Shown here: in pieces, positions 1 through 61,873 of the stretch
Numbering within the stretch: the first letter of the stretch is position 1
Layout of the letters: each line of letters starts with the position of its first letter
Assembly: GCA_922989275.2 (NCBI GenBank)
Contig: OV277856.1
Coordinates: 101,363,038-101,427,037, forward strand
Direction of reading: 5' to 3'
DNA: 64,000 bases
Source of the DNA: Gari tellinella
Taxonomy: Eukaryota; Mollusca; Bivalvia; Cardiida; Psammobiidae
Notes under the pieces: generated by a model
Database searches by the model: none
What the model saw: the letters and a program-made list of their open reading frames with translations, nothing else
Told to the model about the DNA's origin: nothing
Program-made: the position numbers and the translations under genes

Positions 1-1199
1 CGTTGCAATGCTACATTTCAAATATCCAAGCTCTAGGCCTCAAGGTTTGGCACAAGAACATAAACATTAAATGTCTGCACTTTTACTTTTCACACTCTCA
101 TCATTCTCACACAAAATTATAATCTGAAAAATATCAAATCACGTTTACAAATGCGTCATCGTGTAGTCTATACATTTTTTGCGATTTTGGGACCCACTTT
201 GTCTATGGTTTGTACCCATAAGTATATCAAAAGTCCCTCAAACCAAATGTACAGTTCCTTTATCGTGTTAGTATAGTATGAAACGAAGGATAAATCGCAA
301 AATATAGGGAAAACGTTTACCAGTGATTTGATAACACTCGTTGCATGTGTCCAACGAACAAAGGGTTGCCTAAGACGGCTTACACATTTTAACACCATAC
401 ATCACTATTTAGGTGCATCTTTATATTTAGTACGAGTGTTAGCCGTGCCTTCCAAAACAAAATTGTTTCACAATCTGATGATATTTTCTGAACGAAAATG
501 CAAATAGTTAAACTCTGAGAGTTGTTGCAGTCAAGGCATATTGCCAACGACAATAACATAGCGTGCCAAAATCATTCCAATGGATTCCATGTGTGAGATC
601 CGTCTAAAGACCCCAAACCTTCTCAAACCCATCCAAACCTCCCAAAACCACTTTTCAAAGCAACGTTTCCATATTTTAGCAGATGATAGCTTAATGCAGG
701 CTGAAAGTAAAGCAGGATGCGCCTTAGGGGGCATTTCGCTTTACTTTCAACCTGCTTCAATTGATACCTGTCCTCAAAACCAGGAATATACTATTGGATA
801 ATGGGTTAATATCTAGAAGTAACTGCGTATAGCTATCTTAAGTTTTGTACGAGTTGCTCCCCTTGAAATAAACAAAATGGTGTATTTAATTTTAATTTAG
901 CATTTTTATTATTATTATTTTAGTGCAAATTCGCCATTTATAAGCTTTATTTGATAATATATTAAGGAATAAAAGTAGTTTGGTTTGATTGTTAAGCAGT
1001 TTAGGCAGGTTTGGAGAGGTTTGGAGTGGTTTGGGAAGGTTTGGTCTTTTAGACGGACCCGATTGCGTGTAGACAAAACATGTTTGATCATTTTTCGTGC
1101 AACACGTCAGTAGTTTAACCACTTGGCGGAAAAGGTAATGTACAATCATTATTCAAATGAAAAGACATACGTTAAATTTAATGGATCGTGTATATTCTA

Positions 1200-3040
1200 G
1201 TAGGTTGCGTAGAATATTAATTCTAATCTAATTTACTTCATTAATAAAATCTAAAACCTTAATGTTTTAGAACTCCAAACGTTCAGTGTTGCAACGACCA
1301 TTGCGTTTGTAATTGAAAGTTTAATCAAAATCAGTTTAATCAGTTCCGGCTTATTCACATCTGTCTAGCAACCAATTTTGTCATTAAATCAAAATATCCA
1401 TGAACTATAAAAAACAAAGTAAGTCTAACTTTCCTGCGACATAAAAGTATCAAACAACACATTGAATAGTTTCTTTATATGTTCGTAATGGTTAAATCTT
1501 AAAATAGAATGGGTGTATAAATGCTAAATATTTGCAGAATATGTCTGCTTTACTCCCAATCCTTGTAATCACATTTAATAAATGTGATTACATGGGAGTT
1601 AAGCAAATTGACCCTTTCATTATCAATAATTATCGCGAGTATTTTACTCCTTCACTGCAATATCTGCGTCTGCTTCAATATTGTATTTTGCAATATCGTT
1701 TCAAAAGTACATGTAGTTTCAATGCAGTATGACTGATGAAATTTTGAAACAAACGAGTCTCAATTAGTTTGGACCCTGGTCAGACGCCACGTTTCGTGAC
1801 GTCTGATCAGGATCCAAACGGTCTTCAAAGCGCCCTTTGTGAAAGAATTAATACCGAAAACTAACTTTATTTTAGGTTATCGTATTTACAATCAATCACA
1901 TTTCTTGGACATAGTCTACTTTTTTGAGCAACATATATCAACAACGTCGTTGTCATCGATCATGGTATTAGCACTTATTATCTTAATCCCGAATGTGCAA
2001 TAAAATTAGGAAAGTAAATAGTAAATGTAAAGCATGTTGACTCGCATTATTTACATTTCATGGTTCTTAATATATCAACCAACACCTCTAAATGTAATAA
2101 ATCACGCAACCGACACGTGTAATTTAGCCGTCAACAATGCAGGGGATGGGATTAAAATTAACTCATTGACCTCTAATAGTTTCAACAATATATTTCAAAC
2201 TTACAAGCAGGGGTAGACTCTGAGCAAGTTGCTCTTGTATGAGCCCTCTAAGCAGGGTATATGATGTTTGCATAGTACAAGTGTACTCTTCACATGTACC
2301 CTGTTAGTTATTGAAGAGTGCACTTGTCGCTATGGTTGAGTTTGTTTAAATAATCATAGAAAATACCATTAAATTGCGTAAACTAGGATTTAAACCATAT
2401 GTAGTGCACTAGTACATGTTTAACCACGAATTGACACACTTATACCGTGGTCAATATTACCATAAGCAAGGTCATATATTACACTCGCTTTTTGGGGAGG
2501 GTCGAATCTAACGTTGTGAGACCTTGTGACCCGACCCAATTACCTTATGTATATGGAAATAAAATATGTTTAAACTAAACTTGTTTTGACTAACAGTTTC
2601 TTCAGTCGAAATTGTTTACTCGTATTCGATAGAATTGACATTATTACTACATACACAGTTTAACAAACTACTCAACTGAGAACAAAATACGTTGTTGAAC
2701 TTTTAAAAAATTCAACAAATCTTGCAACAAACATTAATATATAATAATGTGTGTAAATTGAAATAAGTTCCGTCCGATTAAGGATTATTATGATGTTTAG
2801 AGCTTTATGATATTCCTGAAATATATATTTTGGTTCAAATGAGGTTTGCCCGGTTTAAATTAAGATTCCAATGAAAATCTGTAAAATATTGATCAAAGAT
2901 AACTGATTATATTTGAGATTGGTTTTTGAGTCTGTGTATACTTCTTGTCGGAGTAGGCTTCAAACTGATTACATGACTTTCTCTCAGTAAGATAAATTGT
3001 CTTCTTTCTAAAATATGAATTTAAAGTATTTTGACTTAGA
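1200..3040. other. No gene seen; minor hairpins
   Basis: AT-rich unique sequence. It holds a TTAA-2 core at 1767-1820 and a TTAA-4-like hairpin near 2275-2330 (ACAAGTGTACTCTTC / GAAGAGTGCACTTGT). Confidence 0.5.
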
Positions 3041-3049
3041 ATAATGAAA

Positions 3050-3125
3050 TGAGTGTTAAACAGTTTGGATCCGGATCAGACACCGCGTAACGCGGCGTCA
3101 GATCAGGATCCAAACTGTTTGCAAA
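3050..3125 (+). repeat. TTAA-2 core hairpin
   Basis: AACAGTTTGGATCCGGATCA pairs with its complement around CCGCGTAACGCGG. Similar isolated cores occur at 1767-1820, 7164-7230, 23204-23255, 28753-28822, 38297-38355, 47225-47280 and 59585-59650. The outer parts of these copies are degraded. Confidence 0.75.
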
Positions 3126-4411
3126 GAACGATTGTACTCGGGGTAAGGTAGTACAGAGGTTCAGTCATAGTTGCCTTGAATCTTGATCATAATTACAAAA
3201 ATGTAGCATATTTACTACACGACATCAGCTATATATAAGTATAAGTACAAGCATAGCTTGTAATGAAAAAACGTATGTACCGTTATGAGTGTATGCACAT
3301 GCTTGTTTACAGCAGCAAAATACACATTAGTGTCAATGAGTGGTGGTATTTGACACTTACTATGACATAGTTCTTGTTGTCATTCTCAAGTTATATACAG
3401 TAAATTCTTTGATAGCAGCTCGGTTAATAGACGATCTTTACAGACGGTACTTTTTTACTTTTACCCTTAGTTTAGCCTTCAGTAGTGTCATTGCTTCTTC
3501 ATCGAACTGCTGTTGGACATATATTTTGTTTATTGTAACCAATATAGTATCTCACTTTACACAGAATGTCGCAATTACTTTTATTCAAAATAGAGTTTAG
3601 AAGTTAAAGTATGTTTCTATACTGTAAACACTGGTTATGTTAATTTTAATGCAATTCAGCGCTTGTGAGGTACAAATGTCCCTCGATTATAATGTATTAT
3701 GATCTTATAGATTCAGGAAGCCACTGTCGATTGTAAAGGCATCTTGTTTCTCCCATAAGCACATTTTTCGCCAGAGAAAGATAAACAACTTTCTCTCATA
3801 CTCTTTGTTTTATAGAATATGAACTGTATTTATTTGGAAAAATCATTTTAAATAAGTACATGTATTTTGAGAAGATGTCATCAAATAATTACAATCTAAT
3901 TTCTGTTGACTGGCTATATTTTTAAAGTGCCTTAAGGTGTTTGCCTTATTTAAGGCATTTAGTTCCAATATGTAATTAAAGTGTGCTAATTCTCCCACCC
4001 AACCATTTATCACAACTTTTACTTTACTGTGTACTGTTATTATTGCTAATGATAGAAATGAACCACAGTTCTGTTTACGAGAGAAAAGTATCAGCAGATT
4101 ATTTATAAAAAAAAAAAATACTTAGTCCTGCATGGCTTCACGCAGCGAGTACTCATTTGGATCAAGCAGTTTGTGAAAGATTTTTGTTCTGTCATTTTAT
4201 ATGAAATAGCATAATTTGGTAAGTACATGTATAGCATTTTCATGCTCAAAATTTAAAGTAACTTATTCTCGATGACACTTTCATTTGCAAACTGTTTGGG
4301 TGAAGATTTGTCTGACAATCCTATACATTATTTTCATTAGACTATGTGTTTGCGAGAAGACATTCCTTCATGAATATAAGTTTACTGTATGACGATATAT
4401 TTACAAGTTTA

Positions 4412-7040: not shown

Positions 7041-7607
7041 ATGCAGAAACACCATTCTTATCATTCTGAATTGTCGTTTGTTTCAAACATAATTATCGTC
7101 GGCGAAAATAAATCAAAAATAAGTTTGAAGCATTTTACAATAAAGAATGGTTGAAAATGAGTGGCAAATAGTTTTGGTTCCTGATCAGACAACGCGTTAC
7201 GCGGCGTCTGATCTGGGAACAAACAGTTTGGAAATGTAAGCCAAGTCGCGCTTACTTTGAGAAGGGTTAACTTAAGTTTAACTTGATGGGAACCAATACC
7301 GATGTAATTTTCTACGTTTTATTGTAATGCGTTTGCGTTTCGTTTGCACTAAAACGAGAAAGAATAACGTCATCTCTACTGTGCGTATACTAAACAAAAC
7401 AATAAGCACGATTCCAAGTAGTGGTGTATACCATAAATATTGTACATGTACAGTATAGCCCAATGTTAACCGCTCAATGCAATATGGCTCGTTCAATCAC
7501 AGGTATTCGTGTATGCCGTTTATCGTAGTCCGTGTACAGTATATAGTATATGTTTTACTTACCGCAGCTTTAGGGTAACGCGTTTCCTATCAAAGTATGC
7601 TCAATTA

Positions 7608-7998
7608 AATACGAAAGACTCAAGCAGGAAACGTAACACAAACAATACACCCACCTCTCAAGCAGAACACACACACACACAGTCATACCACAACAAACAC
7701 ACACACACACACACACACGCAATACCATTCCTTCATCTACACACTAAATAGAAAACAACACGCAAGACAAACATAAAGCAAAGTGAATATAGGAGCCCGC
7801 CTTGGTACGGTCAGTAGCAATCAATAATTAACTATAAATTAATTAATTATTAACAACCACTGGGGGGGTTAAACCTGGGTTTAGGGGTGCCCAACCTCAC
7901 ACTTATCTCCTATATTCACCTATAAAGACAAACAGTGTACATAAAATATAAAACCTGTTCCACAACCTCACAATCAAAAAGACCGCCAGCACAGTAAG
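7608..7998 (-). mobile_element. 5'-truncated 3' UTR copy of the Naiad-like element
   Basis: The reverse complement matches 59094-59475 almost base for base, including the 13-bp paired ends of the UTR hairpin, the AATTAATT-rich loop, a CA-rich simple repeat (about 7668-7720) and the 3'-terminal TGAGTCTTTCGTATTTA. Similarity stops sharply at about 7608, the retroelement 3' end, and at about 7998, the 5' truncation. This is the footprint expected of incomplete reverse transcription. The open reading frame across the CA repeat (7509-7751) is accidental. Confidence 0.85.
7668..7722 (+). repeat. (CA)n simple repeat
   Basis: Interrupted ACACAC run within the truncated Naiad-like 3' UTR. The intact copy has a TG-rich run at the matching place (about 59370-59415). 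Confidence 0.85.
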
Positions 7999-8334
7999 TA
8001 ACAATGTTACTTAGTGGTTGAAATTATTTTTGACCAATGAGAGTTGAGTATTTTTGAAAAAAATTCGAGGATTCTATTTTTTAAGTCAGTACTATCAAAC
8101 ACTAACCAACGACTAAAATATTTAATCCTGCGCATGCGTATTTGGGTTGATTCGCAGGTGTTTCTTTGGGTGCGGCCGTCAGAAGTACTAGTGGCGGTAA
8201 ATGTCAATTTCCTTTGACATCTCTTTGTCGGTACTATTTAAAAAGGGTGTTTCGGGAAGAACAAACGTTTTGTTACTCCCAATTGACGGTATAGCTCTTT
8301 GTCGGTACCAACAAAATAATTTCAACCACTAAAG

Positions 8335-53400: not shown

Positions 53401-55077
53401 TGTCTAATGTCAGAGAGTTGCCATTTACTTACATCTTGTTTACATACTGACTACTTCAGTTCAAGCTAAGCCAAAGGTCGTTAATGTATCAAAAAGACAT
53501 TGAACTTGACCTTTTCAAACCAATGACTCTCCATTTTGAACAAAGGACCTCAGAGAGGAAATGAGTTAAACACAAGCAATAACCAATTAAGATATACATG
53601 TATTACATGTATATTTGATCTTTCTTAATTATTATTTTTTTAAATTAGCTTTTCCATCGTGGTTTGCGGCTGCCATATTGGATTTTGCTATTGTGGAACT
53701 TGACCTTTCTGAATCAAAAACACCCAAGATTGCACAAAGGGCCTCAGAAATAAGTTCCACATCAAAATATTATTAATTTAGAGATATTACATTTGATAAT
53801 TCTCTAAAAAAGAAAACAAATAGCTTTTTCAACATGGTTGCGGCGGCCATATTGGATTTTGCTTCTTTTGGAACTTGATCTTTCCAAAGCAAAGACACCC
53901 TAGATTGCACAAAGGGCATCAGAAATGAGTTCTACTCTAAAAAATAATCAATTTAGAAGTATAGCATTTGATTTTTGTCCAAAAAACCCAACAAAATTAG
54001 CTTTTTCAACATGGTTTGCGGCGGCCATATTGGATTTGGCTATTGTGAAACTTGACCTTTCCGAATCAAATACATACCAGATTGCACAAAAGGCCTCAGA
54101 AATGGGTTCAACACCCAAACATTATCAATTGAGAGGTATTACAATGGTTTGTTCTCCAAAAAAGAAACAAAATTAGCTTTTTTAACATGGCTTGCGGCGG
54201 CCATATTGGATTTGGTTTTTGTGGAACTTGATCTTTCCAAATCAAAGACATCCCAGATTGCACAAAAGGCATCAGAAATGAGTTCAACATCCAAAAATTA
54301 TCAATTGAGAGGTATTACATTGGTTTATTCTCCAAAAAAGGAAAAAAGTTAGCTTTTTTAACATGGCTTGCGGCGGCCATATTGGATTTTGCTATCGTGG
54401 AACTTGATCTTTCCAAATCAAAAACATCCCAGATTGCACAAAGGGCATCAGAAGTGAATTATACTCTAAAAAATAATCAATTTAGAAGTATTATATTTGA
54501 TTTTTCTTCAAAAAAACAACGAAAAAAGCTTTTCCAACATGGTTGGCGGCGGCCATTTTGGATTTGGCTAATGTGAAATTTGACCTTTCCAAATCAAAGA
54601 CACCCCAGATTGCACAAAGGGCACCAGAAATGAGTTCCACACCAAAAAACAATCAATTTAGAGGTATTACACTTATTTATTCTCCAAAAAACAAAAAAGT
54701 TAGCTTTTTCAAAATGGCTGGCGGCGGCCATATTGGATTTGGATATTGTGGGAAACGTGACAGTGTGGCAGACAAGCACCTCGGTGATTTGTGATGTCTA
54801 TGGTCTCGTTAACTCACATCAAGTGAGAAACTCTCTCAACACCATTTTGCAAACGGGTCTTCAGGTCAGGTACAGGACTATAGACAGAGTTAAAATTCTG
54901 TGTTGAGATGGGCAACCTACATGGTCGTCCTGAATGGATGCGGTAGATATTCACAATCTAAACTCACAGCTTGGTAAACAGACTGCCCAAATTGTCAGAT
55001 ATTCATATTTAAAGTCCTTCATTCAATGTGTCTAAATTCTCAACTTAGAAATACAGACGACACTTTATAGCAGGGGA

Positions 55078-55327
55078 TACAGTGGAGAAAACGTTATTCT
55101 TTCCCAATAAACGCGTTTACGCTAAAACTATTATTTGCAGTGCAAACAGTTTGGAGCCAGATCAGACGCCGGGTAACCCGGCGTCTGATCAGGCTCCAAA
55201 CTGTTTGCCACCAAGATAAACATGAATTATCAGAATTGTCCAAAAGTTGTACTTTTCTACGTTTTAGTGTTTTGCGTTTGCGTACGTTTGCGTTTAAACG
55301 GGAAAGAATAACAGATTCTCCACTGTA
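55078..55327 (-). mobile_element. TA-1 MITE, full length (250 bp)
   Basis: Complete copy located about 220 bp right of the foldback element and 660 bp left of the Naiad-like element. Confidence 0.9.
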
Positions 55328-55431
55328 ACATAATGCGGCATGGCAGTGAAACAATACAGCATTACTTCACGATAGGAGGGGGGGGAATGTTGGTTTTACA
55401 CGTTCGAAATTGAAATTAAGTGTGGAGATGT

Positions 55432-55643
55432 AAAACAGTAAACTTTCTAACTACGACCATAAAATAAAAGCTAGCTGATTTTTTTAAAGATGGGTGACAG
55501 CTTAAAGCAAGGTGACAGTAGAATGCAAAGTTCCTAATGGAACTTTCTGTTTCGATGTCACCTTGCTTTAAGCAGTCACCTGTCTTAAACACCCAAAACT
55601 ATGAGCGCAATACTGTGGTCGTAATAGCGATGTTTGACTGTAC
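55432..55643 (+). mobile_element. TA-2 MITE
   Basis: Ends ACAGTAAACTTTCTAACTAC and GTCGTAATAGCGATGTTTGA; central arms AAAGCAAGGTGACAGTAGAA and the complement ending CACCTTGCTTT. Confidence 0.8.
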
Positions 55644-55867
55644 ATTTAACCTCAAATCAGTCCTGGACTGAGAAGGGTTTCACATATGCCCATTTATCAT
55701 AAAAACTCGCAGATTGGTAGACATAACGGCACTTCAAGTTATTTACACAACCTGAATACGAATAGTTCTAGATTGTATTGTGTTAGCTGAACTTTAGTCT
55801 TACAAGTCTCACCCATGAAGTTATAAGGGCATGACGAAATATATCTTTTACTCATAACAATAATATT

Positions 55868-55972
55868 ATCTACGCCTAGTGTCTACTTAAGTGGACATAG
55901 GCTAACAGTGTAGACCCTGATGAGACGCCGCGTTACGCGGCGTCTCATCAGGTTCTGCACTGTTTGCTGCAT
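55868..55972 (+). mobile_element. TTAA-3 core fragment
   Basis: Hairpin GTAGACCCTGATGAGACGCCG with complement around CGCGTTACGCG. The compensating change GATGAGAC/GTCTCATC occurs on both arms. Immediately upstream of the Naiad-like element. Confidence 0.7.
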
Positions 55973-56038
55973 CATATGAAATATTTGACTGTATGGACAA
56001 ACACTACAGTGTCTTGAGATCTCCCTTGTATATCTAAA

Positions 56039-56450
56039 ATGAAATCTTTAAACAAGTATACCGAGATAATGCAATGTAATACAATTTGAAAAGAACCAGG
56101 TTGTGGTGTCCAGTATGTTGGGCAAACCGGTCGTCCCCTCAAAACTAGGTTTAATGAACATCTTCGTACTTGTAGAAACAAAAAACTGAGGAACTTTTTG
56201 TATCAACATTTTCGGAAATCTGGACATGGATTAGATTTTATTTCAATTCAACCTGTCATATTACGTATGATAAAAATGCTACTAATAGTTTCAAATGTAA
56301 GGCTAGATTTATAACGGAATTAAAATGGATTAAAAATTTACAGACACCCTTTCCTTTAGGCTTGAATGATAATATATACCAATCTGGCAATATTTCAAAA
56401 GAACCTTCTATTGATATTTTTCTATTTATTCTACACGCAACCGTAAATCT
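56039..56450 (+). pseudogene. GIY-YIG endonuclease domain of the Naiad-like element
   Basis: Frame 2 reads CGVQYVGQTGRP from about 56102, the YIG half of a GIY-YIG nuclease, followed by the catalytic-arginine region RFNEH and further histidines (YQHF, GH) expected of the CCHH motif of Penelope-like nucleases. After about 56250 the domain continues in frame 1 (ITYDKN, then ELKWIKNLQTPFPLGLND), so one base has been gained or lost. A TGA at 56087-56089 is in frame directly before KEPGCG, where related nucleases have the first Cys of the CCHH motif. The VIY strand expected before it seems shortened, so this end may also carry a small deletion. The ATG at 56039 is in frame but may not be the true start. 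The domain would nick target DNA for retrotransposition. Confidence 0.75.
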
Positions 56451-56951
56451 AGATCGCATGGTATTCGTATAAATGGAAATATTAAACGTAAATCACGTAA
56501 GTCGGTTTCTATAACAGATTTGCATAATCTGCTGTTACTTTCTGGTAAACATAAAATGCTTTCTCGGCTTTCTTCGTTGTCATTGTCGTCTTTAAGAGAT
56601 ATTGACGACAAGGCTGATGGAATAATTTTACGCACAGATCCTCTGTATTATACTGCGGGTTTAATACAAAGTTATACTCAGCATGTTCTCAGACCTCATA
56701 TTGATTCTTTAAACGATCACAAAAGATATTTCATTAAGGTCCCTTTTATAAATAAAGGTATTGACTTCATAGATTTACAAAGTATTCTCCGAAACAAAAA
56801 TGTGATGAATGCTATTCCAAATTATTTCAAAAATCTTGAACCACATATTATTTGCTATAAGTATAATAAATCTGTAAGAGGGTTAATTTTTAACTACAAT
56901 AAAATTGTTTCTGATCTTAAAATTCTCGAAAGTCACACCAGATACATGTGA
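56424..56951 (+). pseudogene. Basic linker and N-terminal RT-proximal region of the Naiad-like element
   Basis: This frame-0 segment picks up where the GIY-YIG frame stops. It opens with a strongly basic stretch (RNRKSRSHGIRINGNIKRK) that could serve in nucleic-acid binding or nuclear import, continues through SITDLHNLLLLSGKH and KADGIILRTDPLYY, and ends at TGA 56949-56951. That stop arises from a one-base shift, because the next frame continues with the expected CxC region within about 15 bases. The middle has no recognised domain, but its position between EN and CxC matches the family layout. Confidence 0.65.
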
Positions 56952-58836
56952 CTGTACCTCTTCTAAATTTTGTTACGCTCCAGTGGGTCATATAAAAACA
57001 GGCACTTTTGATATCATTAAAGATAAACGCATCAGAGCGCTTTTGAGTACGGGACCTAAATTTAGATTACCTGCCTTAATTGATTTCGATACTTGCCGCA
57101 ATCATATTTCGGAAGCTTTGAATAATTATAGTACCAACTGGTGGCGAAGAGAACATGCTGAAAATGACGCTCTTTCAAAATGGAAAGAATTAATTTTTGA
57201 TATTATCGATACCCGGATTTCGTTCTATGTATCCAATAACCATCTTTTACCACCTAAACCTAAATGTAACATTCGTCACTTAAAGAAGGGCATACAAGAC
57301 TTTCATTCCAAATATGTACTCGTTCCTGCAGACAAAGCATCCAATAATGTGATAATTGTATGACGATTACATTATGTTGATACTTTAAACCAGGAACTTG
57401 TAAATACCAATTCCTACACATCAACCAATTTTACGGAACGTAATGTAGTATCTGATAATCTTGATACATGTGTACAATTAAAAGCTGAAGTCAACATTAC
57501 ATGTCACAAACTTCCTGCAATGTACTGGATACCAAAACTCCACAAAACTCCATATAAGTCTCGTTTTATTGCTAATTCAAGTGCATGTACTACTACTAAG
57601 CTTTCCAAACTTTTGACATCGTCTTTAATTAAAATCAAAGAACATGTTCAAAGGTATTGTGCAAAGACTTACGAAAATTCTGGACTTAATCTGTTTTGGT
57701 CTATCAAAAACTCGAATGAAGTTTTGACGAAGCTTGAAAATAGAAAATACCAAGCTTGCAATATAAGTACTTATGACTTTTCTACACTATATGCTACCTT
57801 ACCTCATAATTTAATAAAAACTAAACTTATACAACTTATTGAAAAGACTTTTGCCAGAGAAAGGAATCTATTTCTGGCGTGTAATACTGATCGTGCATTT
57901 TTTACAAATAACACGGTTAAGCATTACACTATGTGGACTTGCACCGATGTTTGTAAATCACTATCATTTCTTCTAGATAATATTTATGTACGTTTTGGGA
58001 GTACCATATACCGCCAAGTGTTTGGTATCCCTATGGGTACAAACTGTGCGCCTCTTGTCGCAGACCTATTTTTGTACTGTTATGAGAGGGACTTTATGCT
58101 AAGTCTAAAACCTGATACACAGGCAGATATGATTGAAGCCTTTAACGATACATCGCGCTATCTAGATGATATTTTTAATATAGACATCCCATTTTTTGAT
58201 ACGTTGTTTCCTTTTATTTACCCAAAAGAACTACGCCTTAATAAAACAAATGAGTCAAATTTGTCGGCACCATTTTTAGATTTAGATCTTTTAATAAATA
58301 ACGGAATTGTTTCTTCTAAGATTTACGATAAACGAGATGATTTTGATTTTAGTATTGTAAATTATCCTCATCTAGATGGCGATGTTCCCCGTTCTACATC
58401 TTACGGGGTTTATATCTCACAACTTATTCGTTTTGCTAGGGCCTGTACCTCTGTTGAGGACTTCCACATTCGTAATAAAACTATTACTGAAAAGCTTCTT
58501 AAACAGGGGTACAGATTTCATAAACTTCGTAAAACATTTTCTAAATTCTTTTATAGAAATCGTCCTCTTATTAACAAGTATAAATGTAACTTAAAGTCTT
58601 TTCTGCGGCAAGTTATTTCACATCCGGAGTTTTATGGTTATGTTATTTACAAACTTCGTAAGATTCTTGGACATATTCATTTTCAAAACCTGTTTGTGAA
58701 ACGTATTAGATTTTTCCTCAAAAAAGATTATGAGCCAACTATATTGCTGCGCACTTCACGTTTGGTTATCGATCAATCTACAACCATGCTTTCCTCTTTG
58801 GTTGTGCGACGACAGACAGGGCTTAGCACGACATGA
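56935..58836 (+). pseudogene. CxC motif plus reverse transcriptase, with in-frame TGA
   Basis: One frame runs from about 56935 to TGA 58834-58836, interrupted only by TGA at 57361-57363. The CxC motif (TCDCTSSKFC) is encoded at 56947-56955. After the internal TGA the frame continues without a break into YWIPKLHKTPYKSRF (57523 on), the RT motif 1-2 region. Counting from Met 57520: motif A is TYDFSTLYATLP with Asp86, motif B is GIPMGTNCAPL at 169-179, motif C is YLDDI with Asp216 and Asp217, and FLDLDL at 252-257 fits motif E. All three catalytic aspartates are present. The stretch between motif 2 and motif A has room for the insertion-in-fingers domain reported for Naiad RTs. The internal TGA follows NNVIIV, where relatives commonly have Cys, so it may be read as selenocysteine. 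A frame-0 path ends at TAG 58824-58826 and may be the original C-terminus. Confidence 0.85.
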
Positions 58837-58891
58837 TGATGTATCTCAAAAGCCGTCCTTAACCGGGAGAGTTATGTCGGATTTTCGTGCT
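58825..58891 (+). promoter_or_regulatory. Candidate SECIS element in the Naiad-like 3' UTR
   Basis: Manual folding gives helix I, AGCACGA (58825-58831) with TCGTGCT (58885-58891), 7 perfect pairs; a small internal loop CA/TT; the quartet TGAT (58834-58837) opposite GGAT (58879-58882), giving U.U, G.A, A.G and U.G; and helix II, 58838-58847 with 58867-58878, ten pairs with two 1-nt bulges and G-U pairs. The apical part opens with AAAA at 58848-58851, and CCG/CGG (58853-58855, 58864-58866) could form the mini-stem of a form 2 SECIS. AUGA to AA is 11 nt, as in known animal SECIS elements. It sits at the ORF end, where a SECIS serving upstream UGA codons belongs. The fold was done by eye only. 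Confidence 0.6.
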
Positions 58892-59171
58892 TTGTTTGTT
58901 TTTTCCTCCCTCTCTGTCGTACCCTGAACCCATCCATGTCTTGCAGTTACTCGTGACTACAGACTAGTCGCTTGAGTACAATCTGACCGTTGCCACAGTG
59001 GGTTATTTTTAGCACGGGCTTGAATGTTAAATTCTTTCCCGTGTTACTAATAATCTTGTCATAGATTTTTTGTTAGATGTTTTACATGTATTTACTTACT
59101 GTGTTGGCGGTCTTTTTGATTGTAAGGTTTTGGAACAGGGTTTATATTTTATGTACACTGTTTGTCTTTAT

Positions 59172-59309
59172 AGGTGAATATAGGAGATAAGAGTGAGGTT
59201 GGGCGCCCCTAAACCCAGGTTTAACCCCCAGTGGTTGTTATTGGTTAATTAATTTATAATTAATTATTGATTGCTACTGACCGTACCAAGGCGGGCTCCT
59301 ATATTCACT
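59172..59309 (+). repeat. Conserved terminal hairpin in the Naiad-like 3' UTR
   Basis: GTGAATATAGGAG at 59172-59184 is perfectly complementary to CTCCTATATTCAC at 59297-59309, enclosing about 112 nt with an inner AT-rich palindrome around TTAATTAATTTATAATTAA. The same paired ends and loop occur in the truncated copy at 7608-7998. No hammerhead core is recognisable, in line with reports that Naiads lack canonical hammerheads. It may be an RNA structure used in priming or processing. Confidence 0.6.
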
Positions 59310-60147
59310 TAGCTTTATGTTTGTCTTGCGTGTTGTTTTCTATTTAGTGTGTAGATGAATGAATGGTATCGCGTGTGTTTGTGTGTTTGTTGTGGTATGA
59401 CTGTGTGTGTGTGTTCTGCTTGAGAGGTGGGTGTATTGTTTGTGTTACGTTTCCTGCTTGAGTCTTTCGTATTTATATGAATGGGTTAACTCTTTCAGTG
59501 TCATATTGTCGTCTGCTTACAAATTGTCGTCTGCGTTTCTAAAAGAAATCAACCTCTTTGTACTAAAGTATATTGACAGAGTTTCAAACAGGTTGGAGCC
59601 TGGGTCAGACGTCGCGTTACACGGTGTCCGGTAATGGACTGTTTGCAAATAAAGATGATTGTCAGAATAAGAGTTATCATTGCCCTGCATCATAATCATC
59701 GTGCTGGGTCATTTTCCAATTTTTTTTAATCAGGGTCAAAGTGTCAAACAGCTTTTTATTTTACCGTTTGATTGTCACTCTCTTGAAGACGAAATATTAT
59801 GACGTAATGACGAAAGGTAATACGGCAGCGAATTAGTTAAACATCAACTTAGAATTTACATAAAAAATGTCCTTTACATTTAGATTTTAAAATATGAATT
59901 TGTTGTTTTCTCTATCCTCATGTTTAACCCATTTTGAGTCCTGTTATGACACCAAATTACAAAGCATTTTGTCCAATCTAACGCTTTACAGTCAAACTAT
60001 TATAGAGGGACCAGAAGTGAAGTGTAGTGGAAACCTCATAACCCATTACCCCATAGGGTAGATCTATTTCAAATATTGAAGATAGGTCACCACTTAAAGC
60101 AGGTTGAAAGTAAAGCAGAATGTGCCATAAGGATATTTCACGAATAT

Positions 60148-60691: not shown

Positions 60692-61873
60692 TATACTCAA
60701 ACGCAAAAGAAACTGTGCATGTTCTAAGTTAGGATAAATATGGTAATATCGGTCCTAGGCATGTGATTTTTGTACCATATAAAGCACGAACGTCACTTAA
60801 TTGAACAATGTACACATTCGGTCTGTATCAGCTTAAACGTTACGTAACGTCCCAAAACAGGATATTTGCACGGATTGCCCGTGTAGAAGCTTGTCAAATG
60901 TGAACTCGGTCAAATAACCTCTCATTCCCTTCTTGGAACTCCTAGGAATAAGAAAAACACACAGCAATCACTGTAAAACCGGAACTTGCTATGACAAGAC
61001 TATCACAACGTCAGCCAATTGAGACGTTAGTGATGCTCAATAGAGGTACTCTATTTATGATGTTGCGCGGGCATTTAATTGCCACAGAAACACTACCAGT
61101 AGTCTTCGTGAAAGCTTCCAGCAAACAGTCAACGTTGCAGGTCGGCCTCGAAGCGGCATTCCTGTCGTTACTAACGCCAGATTAGACGTCACTTGGAACT
61201 GACGCACACACGGCGTCGGTTTCAAACGGCTACCGCTACAGCGAGACAGTTCGGTATTAGCATGTTGAGACATGTAGCAGTTCCAATTCATCCACTTTGA
61301 TGCATGCCATTGTCACAATACGCGTCCGCATATACTCTCGTCTCGCGGCATAATCTGAATGCAAACGGCGTTAACGTGCCATTCACCCAGACCTAAATCC
61401 AATGGAGCAAATCATGGACCTTTTCGGTAGTAGGGTACGGTCACGGCATGGAATCATCAACTTGCAGGAGCTACAGAATGCTTTCCAGGTCGAATGGAAC
61501 ACAGTTCTTCCGCACGCCGTTCAACGTTACGTCAATTCTGAGAGACGTCTTATTGTACAGGTAATACGCCGAAAAGGACGTAATTCCCAATATAAATGAA
61601 TTTATCAGAATTAAACCATTAAAATAATCTTAAAATTCAATTTTATTCACAATAACACTGATTTCACAATTTGTGAATTTTTGATTTTGACCCCTACCGC
61701 GCTTAAACGTTTAACACGTTTTTTTCCAATACGCTATTTTCAAAACATCTTCTCTGCATTATAGGTAATTGAATAAGCTAAAATTTGATATCAAATTCGA
61801 CACACTGTCATTTATGAATGTCTGCAAAAATACGTTAAAATCCCATGCACAGTTTCTTTTGCGTTTGAGTATA
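60692..61873 (+). mobile_element. Tc1-like transposon with 30-bp TIRs, internally deleted
   Basis: Perfect inverted terminal repeats at 60692-60721 (TATACTCAAACGCAAAAGAA..) and 61844-61873 bound the element, with TA at both ends as expected for the Tc1/mariner superfamily. The length of about 1.18 kb is short for the family. It encodes remnants of both ends of a Tc1 transposase but lacks the middle of the catalytic domain. Confidence 0.85.
60991..61599 (+). pseudogene. Tc1-like transposase remnant
   Basis: The N-terminal part begins MTRLSQRQPIETLVMLNRG (60991). After a frameshift it continues DVARAFNCHRNTTSSLRESF (from 61059) and GRPRSGIPVVTNARLD, typical of the second helix-turn-helix and GRPR hook of Tc1 transposases. 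The C-terminal part (about 61386 to TGA 61597-61599) reads as a damaged SPDLNP box followed by MEQIMDLFGSRVRSRHG, NLQELQNAFQVEWN and YVNSERR, the conserved Tc1 tail. Only about 180 bases separate the halves where the family has several hundred, so the first two catalytic aspartates appear deleted. It is non-functional on its own; with intact TIRs it could be mobilised in trans. Confidence 0.8.

Follow-up and report, generated by a model that had tools for sequence, protein, structure and literature searches.

The 64,000-nucleotide stretch of the Gari tellinella genome analysed here (assembly GCA_922989275.2, contig OV277856.1, positions 101,363,038 to 101,427,037 of the forward strand; hereafter "the window") carries a copy of a Naiad-like Penelope retroelement, in which in-frame TGA codons interrupt a sequence encoding a GIY-YIG nuclease and a reverse transcriptase (RT). 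Comparison with sister copies in the same genome and with related proteins from other sources makes it very probable that this copy, itself dead, belongs to a family with recent activity, in whose intact 1081-residue enzyme five UGA codons would be decoded as selenocysteine (Sec). An initial annotation of the window had proposed a Naiad-type element probably encoding a selenoprotein. This proposal is supported by intact reading frames in sister copies, by five TGA codons at conserved cysteines, by selection on the frame, and by a hairpin of the selenocysteine insertion sequence (SECIS) type.

The element copy in the window

The building blocks named in the initial annotation, i.e. the GIY-YIG stretch (CGVQYVGQTGRP, beginning at 56102), the CxC motif, the YLDDI motif and the TGA codons at 56087 and 57361, are all present in the sequence (Table 1). 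The start of the element had been placed at 55985 and has to be moved, since the match to L004, an intact sister copy used as reference for codon and element numbering throughout, begins at 56083. The 3' end of the window copy (L001), ...TTCGTATTTAT, is common to most of the 40 sister copies. Because the window copy (56083-59476) lacks the 5' part of the element and carries four frame-breaking indels relative to L004, it is dead. The two in-frame TGA codons reported for it are both real and correspond to codons 166 and 592, but two is not the full number, as full-length sister copies carry five. The SECIS-shaped hairpin that had been described near the end of the open reading frame (ORF) was located at 58825-58891 by a match to the Rfam family SECIS_1 that lies below the gathering score.

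Table 1. Positions of the Naiad-like element copy, its parts and a second fragment in the window.
Feature	Position	Strand	Evidence
5'-truncated Naiad-like Penelope element copy	56083..59476	+	blastn; matches L004 element positions 769-4183, 95.0%
In-frame TGA, codon 166, first Cys of the GIY-YIG nuclease C..C..H..H pattern	56087..56089	+	TGA in 21/22 covering copies; Cys in relatives
GIY-YIG nuclease piece (GCGVQYVGQTGRP...), frameshift near 56257	56099..56257	+	reading frames; Pfam PF01541 on L004 ORF
CxC motif TGT GAC TGT, codon 454 = Cys in the window copy	56947..56955	+	TGA at 454 in 34/40 copies
In-frame TGA, codon 592, directly after the PADKAxNN stretch at the RT start	57361..57363	+	TGA in 40/40 copies
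RT frame after TGA 592, open in the window copy	57364..58836	+	final codons off the intact frame owing to an indel
RT catalytic YLDDI	58159..58173	+	seen in the translated frame
SECIS-type hairpin, AUGA / AAAA apical / GGA core, CCG/CGG mini-helix	58825..58891	+	Rfam match, folding, core pattern
Remaining 3' untranslated region	58892..59476	+	aligned among copies
Second fragment of the same element, 3' end only	7603..8001	-	blastn; 92.6% to L004 over 406 columns

Sister copies and their TGA codons

Of 5124 candidate copies in the assembly (1.6 Gb, 80 contigs), 40 were scored, all of them near copies at 94-98%, and these were compared; L041, which overlaps L003, was omitted from the copy counts. 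The copies are spread over many chromosomes and fall into four subfamilies. With TGA taken as a coding triplet, ten of the 40 (L003, L004, L006, L007, L009, L014, L020, L021, L022 and L024) retain an uninterrupted frame of 1081 codons (1084 in L014 and L022). In L004 the TGA codons stand at positions 124, 155, 166, 454 and 592, and the ORF terminates at TAG. Among the copies covering each site, TGA is found in 19/19 at codon 124, 19/19 at 155, 21/22 at 166 (one AGA), 34/40 at 454 (six TGT) and 40/40 at 592, and every other in-frame stop is a singleton among the 40 copies. The sites at 56087 and 57361 thus keep their TGA while other stops are not kept, a contrast that the initial annotation had singled out as informative. 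Codon-by-codon reading of the sites was confined to the 40 fetched copies; two protein searches of the same genome give TGA counts per copy. In the search spanning all five sites, 63 of the best 73 copies (out of 2055 candidates) contain exactly five TGAs, and the stop totals in these 73 are 362 TGA, 16 TAA and two TAG (TAA and TAG counted by hand). In the search over codons 454 and 592, two TGAs were counted in 51 of the 54 scored copies; of the other copies, one had three and two had a single TGA.

The six TGT codons at position 454 fall into two groups of the copy tree. One is a clade of L007, the window copy, L013 and L038 (support 0.97); the other is the pair L032 and L040 (support 0.98), whose members lie on different chromosomes and differ in their 5' ends and flanks. 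Because these two groups are separate in the tree, the Cys version at codon 454 must have arisen or persisted at least twice, and it was copied. L007 combines an intact frame and Cys at 454 with TGA at the other four sites. Within a single genome, codon 454 flips between TGA and Cys.

The five sites are conserved cysteines in relatives

For the five sites, 49 relatives were aligned with the L004 ORF. Among rows with a letter at the site, Cys is found in 32/32 (codon 124), 35/35 (155), 36/36 (166), 39/43 (454) and 43/49 (592), and the corresponding numbers for well-covered rows are 31/31, 33/33, 33/33, 39/43 and 43/49. P0004, P0012 and P0013 have no nuclease, and their Cys at 155/166 is a product of chance in the alignment; their omission in the stricter count leaves the result unchanged. 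All exceptions are W. The rows concerned (P0003, P0005, P0006, P0007, P0008 and P0013) look like predictions made with a genetic code in which TGA stands for Trp (code 4), and P0062 has W at 155, 166, 454 and 592, with Cys at 124. Of the 926 columns with good coverage, ten have Cys in 85% of rows or more, and these ten include every one of the TGA sites (hypergeometric P 4.5e-11); with the stricter rows the five are all among nine conserved Cys columns out of 896 (P 2.6e-11). The statement that the TGAs occupy Cys-like positions, made for two sites in the window, therefore extends to all five. In L004, the conserved Cys columns (119-171, 454-456, 592 and 667) are encoded by five TGA and five TGC/TGT codons, and groups of cysteines mix both kinds.

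Stops and lineage among relatives from other sources

Shorter relatives were taken from two protein searches, one with 40 matches listed and the other with the best 120 of 542 listed; of the 145 relatives given, 144 were mapped and one without an alignment was dropped. Among the matches listed, the protein ends exactly at residue 453 in 63/144 and exactly at residue 591 in 50/144, which places a stop at site 454 or 592 in 113/144, and the remaining 31 end exactly at neither residue. A separate count of short relatives among the matches listed gives 21 that end at 591. The protein search admits certain lengths only, which cannot force protein ends onto two exact residues; the listed relatives are not independent of each other, many being near kin. 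Among the 50 listed relatives that stop at 592, Cys is found at 454 in 47 and a gap in three. Viral contigs searched with P0001 and A5 and genome contigs searched with A5 returned no related DNA.

A tree based on 251 columns has 128 tips, many short branches and stop labels derived from protein ends; 117 of the tips form one clade (support 0.99) separate from eleven all-Cys relatives. This clade comprises the stop- or W-bearing relatives of the tree plus P0002, which has Cys at both 454 and 592, and it includes P0062 and P0258. Codon 454 requires 21 parsimony changes on the tree, compared to a mean of 42.7 and a lowest value of 33 in 200 shuffles of the labels.

In the pearl oyster Pinctada imbricata, gene models that are 80-91% identical to P0062 over short stretches hold pieces of the lineage, and P0145-P0147 end at 591. 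In P0145-P0147, P0149 and P0150, CEP104-like, SNARE, SLC35F, lectin and fibrinogen-like models are fused to pieces of Sec-encoding Naiads. These fusions are likely annotation artefacts caused by TGA: gene predictors split such elements at TGA and join the resulting pieces to models of host genes. P0258 is a Naiad piece stopping at 454 in a metagenome-assembled genome of a gammaproteobacterial symbiont of the lucinid Lucinoma myriamae, and is probably host DNA contamination.

The repeated appearance of stops at sites 454 and 592 bears on a regulatory alternative, according to which the UGAs mainly serve as a selenium-dependent brake, so that mostly nuclease-only or truncated protein is made and the full-length enzyme appears only at high Sec supply. 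A stop at 454 would indeed split the nuclease from the RT and one at 592 would cut the RT at its start, and both recur widely among the listed relatives. Yet the sites track conserved cysteines, including codons 124, 155 and 166, where stopping yields no useful protein, and the copies with Cys at 454 have spread in both groups of the copy tree, which argues that a brake is not needed there. We regard a primarily regulatory role of the UGAs as unlikely.

Selection on the reading frame

The ratio of nonsynonymous to synonymous substitution rates (dN/dS) between intact copies of different subfamilies is 0.18-0.29, and 0.18-0.42 over all 14 pairs run. If the frame is divided at the TGA codons, dN/dS is mostly below 0.6 by segment, and after codon 592 it is 0.15-0.21 in four of five pairs. 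Values between and after the TGAs are mostly low, which argues that the reading frame has been maintained on both sides of them.

These values also bear on the simplest alternative, namely that the copies are dead, their TGAs having arisen as common inactivating mutations, and that the hairpin is a product of chance. The window copy itself, truncated and frameshifted, fits such a scenario. The family does not: identical sets of five TGAs recur in many otherwise open copies; other stops are singletons among the 40 copies; TGA vastly outnumbers TAA and TAG among the best copies; relatives have a conserved Cys at each of the five sites; most segments that follow a TGA have dN/dS below 1; and stops recur at the same two positions in most of the listed relatives. 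A single recent segmental amplification of a dead copy is unlikely as well, because the copies span many chromosomes and four subfamilies. Decay of this kind is extremely improbable, and the copy tallies together with the match to conserved Cys columns led us to reject it.

The SECIS-type hairpin

A SECIS element has a core of AUGA and GGA, an apical AA and a stem of about 11 pairs. The hairpin in the window, which we take to be form-II-like, matches Rfam SECIS_1 with 27.9 bits (E 0.031, 4227 families being compared), and SECIS_1 matches 7/11 fetched loci with 26.7-30.2 bits. The stretch folds with -23.1 kcal/mol (z -2.3), and four of 200 shuffled sequences fold equally well. The core pattern of AUGA, an A-rich apical loop and GGA is present downstream of the ORF in 43/43 copy ends, and in 33/43 the minimum-free-energy fold, judged by eye, is SECIS-shaped (two of these 33 add pairs in the core loop). 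A SECIS-like structure in the 3' ends of the copies, on which the initial annotation had made its reading depend, is thus found in core pattern and mostly in fold, with Rfam scores below 35.

The hairpin starts at the stop codon of the ORF. In 12 of 24 closer relatives (A2), the twelve being near-duplicates of a few families, the protein ends with ...SDSMM(A/V)(P/S)T. Because Met has a single codon, the DNA of these twelve must read ATGATG where the clam element, in the same frame, has its AUGA core, and the position of the hairpin seems to be conserved in them.

The hairpin is one of several observations that speak to a further alternative, i.e. that the UGAs are read through with a residue other than Sec, by stop-codon readthrough or by a near-cognate tRNA. 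An open frame under selection beyond each UGA would look identical under such a mechanism. Five ordinary readthroughs in series would, however, leave very little full-length product; the UGAs stand at Cys columns and alternate with TGT at 454; and a SECIS-type hairpin follows the ORF. UGA-CUA is a readthrough context. In L004 the codons after the five UGAs are GCG, CGA, AAA, GAC and CGA, none of them CUA, and plain readthrough was rejected for lack of this context. Insertion of another residue is very unlikely, if less so than random decay.

Several points weigh against decoding of the UGAs as Sec. No SECIS match attains the Rfam gathering score of 35, SECIS_1 gives no match at E<=1 in four of the 11 loci (L006, L011, L013 and L021), and 10/43 copy ends, including that of the intact copy L007, take another minimum-energy shape. 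The dN/dS pairs were mostly picked for open frames, the 41-codon segment 125-165 has dN/dS of 1.10 and 0.83 in two of five pairs, and segment 593-1081 reaches 0.62 for L004/L011. The relatives from other sources are known as proteins, so that the kind of stop codon is not visible in them. Conservation of TGA among the copies is weak evidence by itself, because 547/956 well-covered codons are invariant across copies.

Proposed mechanism

Intact copies encode a single protein, in which a GIY-YIG endonuclease at the N-terminus is followed by a CxC linker and an RT of the telomerase-like type. As the element's RNA is translated, the SECIS hairpin at the ORF stop may recruit the host SECIS-binding protein, EFSec and Sec-tRNA. 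Sec would then be inserted at 124 and 155 (both in a group of cysteines preceding the nuclease), 166 (first Cys in the C..C..H..H pattern of the nuclease), 454 (first Cys of the CxC motif) and 592 (the RT start). Going by what is known of the family, the full-length enzyme would nick DNA and reverse-transcribe the element RNA as other Penelope elements do. Exchange of Cys for Sec takes one third-base change, and given a SECIS this change may be near-neutral in a selenium-rich bivalve, which would permit flips back and forth.

A mobile element with five Sec residues would tie retrotransposition to the host selenium machinery. Its many copies offer a natural experiment in Cys-to-Sec exchange, since codon 454 reads TGA in 34 of those compared and Cys in six and both versions have spread, and they allow a test of whether the presence of Sec in place of structural cysteines is adaptive, has no effect on fitness or serves regulation. 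More tentatively, and with somewhat more doubt than confidence, we suggest that Sec-encoding Naiads form one old bivalve-wide lineage, in which the nuclease, the linker and the RT repeatedly exchange Cys for Sec and back at their structural cysteines, as a near-neutral ratchet in selenium-rich, processive hosts. If such a bivalve-wide ratchet exists, the mobility of the element would depend on the host's selenium supply.

Family placement and known systems

In the L004 ORF the GIY-YIG domain lies at residues 159-208 (Pfam PF01541, 23.0 bits, cut-off 22.6) and YLDD at 858-861, so that the nuclease is N-terminal to the RT within one frame; the order in the window is the same. Between the two domains lies the motif U/C454-x-C456, which we take to be the "CxC" of Naiad/Penelope elements, and both of its cysteines are invariant in A4. 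The RT is telomerase-related, telomerases being the top matches in the PDB to the fold of the relative P0031, while a sequence search of the PDB gave four matches at E 0.68 and nothing useful. Partial and tandem insertions are seen in L003, which has an inverted partner, and in L025, which has an abutting direct partial copy.

Naiads are not known to carry a canonical hammerhead ribozyme, and no hammerhead family was among the Rfam matches at E<=1 in the 11 loci (58,401 bases), an absence that carries little weight. Naiads have an insertion bias to microsatellites; none were seen by eye in the short flanks of the 40 copies, the 5' flank being empty or cut for several of them.

Craig, Yushenova, Rodriguez and Arkhipova reportedly described in Mol Biol Evol in 2021 multi-Sec selenoproteins encoded by Naiads, which had evolved independently in spiders and in clams. 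A literature search over titles and the beginnings of abstracts listed no publication on selenoprotein-encoding retroelements in the collection searched. Multi-Sec clam Naiads are reportedly published already, and the element described here is a further member. It resembles the clam and spider elements in the permuted order of GIY-YIG, CxC and RT, in its bivalve-type host and in having several in-frame UGAs. To the multi-Sec Naiads reported in 2021, the present analysis adds the match of each of five UGAs to a conserved Cys, the flips between Sec and Cys within one genome, and the wide occurrence of stops at 454 and 592 (the latter also in pearl oyster models).

The name Naiad appears in PMC10941475. 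Canonical Penelope-like elements (Penelope/Poseidon, for example the anole element of PMC11167929) share the GIY-YIG nuclease, the telomerase-like RT and the occurrence of tandem copies with the clam element. In contrast to the latter, with its N-terminal nuclease and UGAs, they have the nuclease at the C-terminus (PMC11167929). Multiple Sec residues are likewise made from one mRNA in bivalve selenoprotein P, which, unlike the element, is a host selenoprotein and is not expected to resemble it; PMC8230778 and PMC8744743 give 46 Sec in oysters and 132 or 133 in one bivalve. Such hosts can therefore read several UGAs per message.

Other features of the window

Downstream of the element, at 61044-61599 on the forward strand, lie frames with NPMEQIMDLFGSRVRSRH, which presumably resemble a decayed Tc1/mariner-type transposase. 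Upstream of it, long palindromes with tiny loops and arms that are 78-97% complementary are found at 55142-55208, 55484-55589 and 55901-55967, two of them mutually related. These palindromes (55142-55967) resemble miniature inverted-repeat transposable elements or foldback elements and give microRNA-precursor matches below the gathering score. At 54500-54750, a 76-base repeat with GGCGGCGGCCAT is present in two copies spaced 175 bases.

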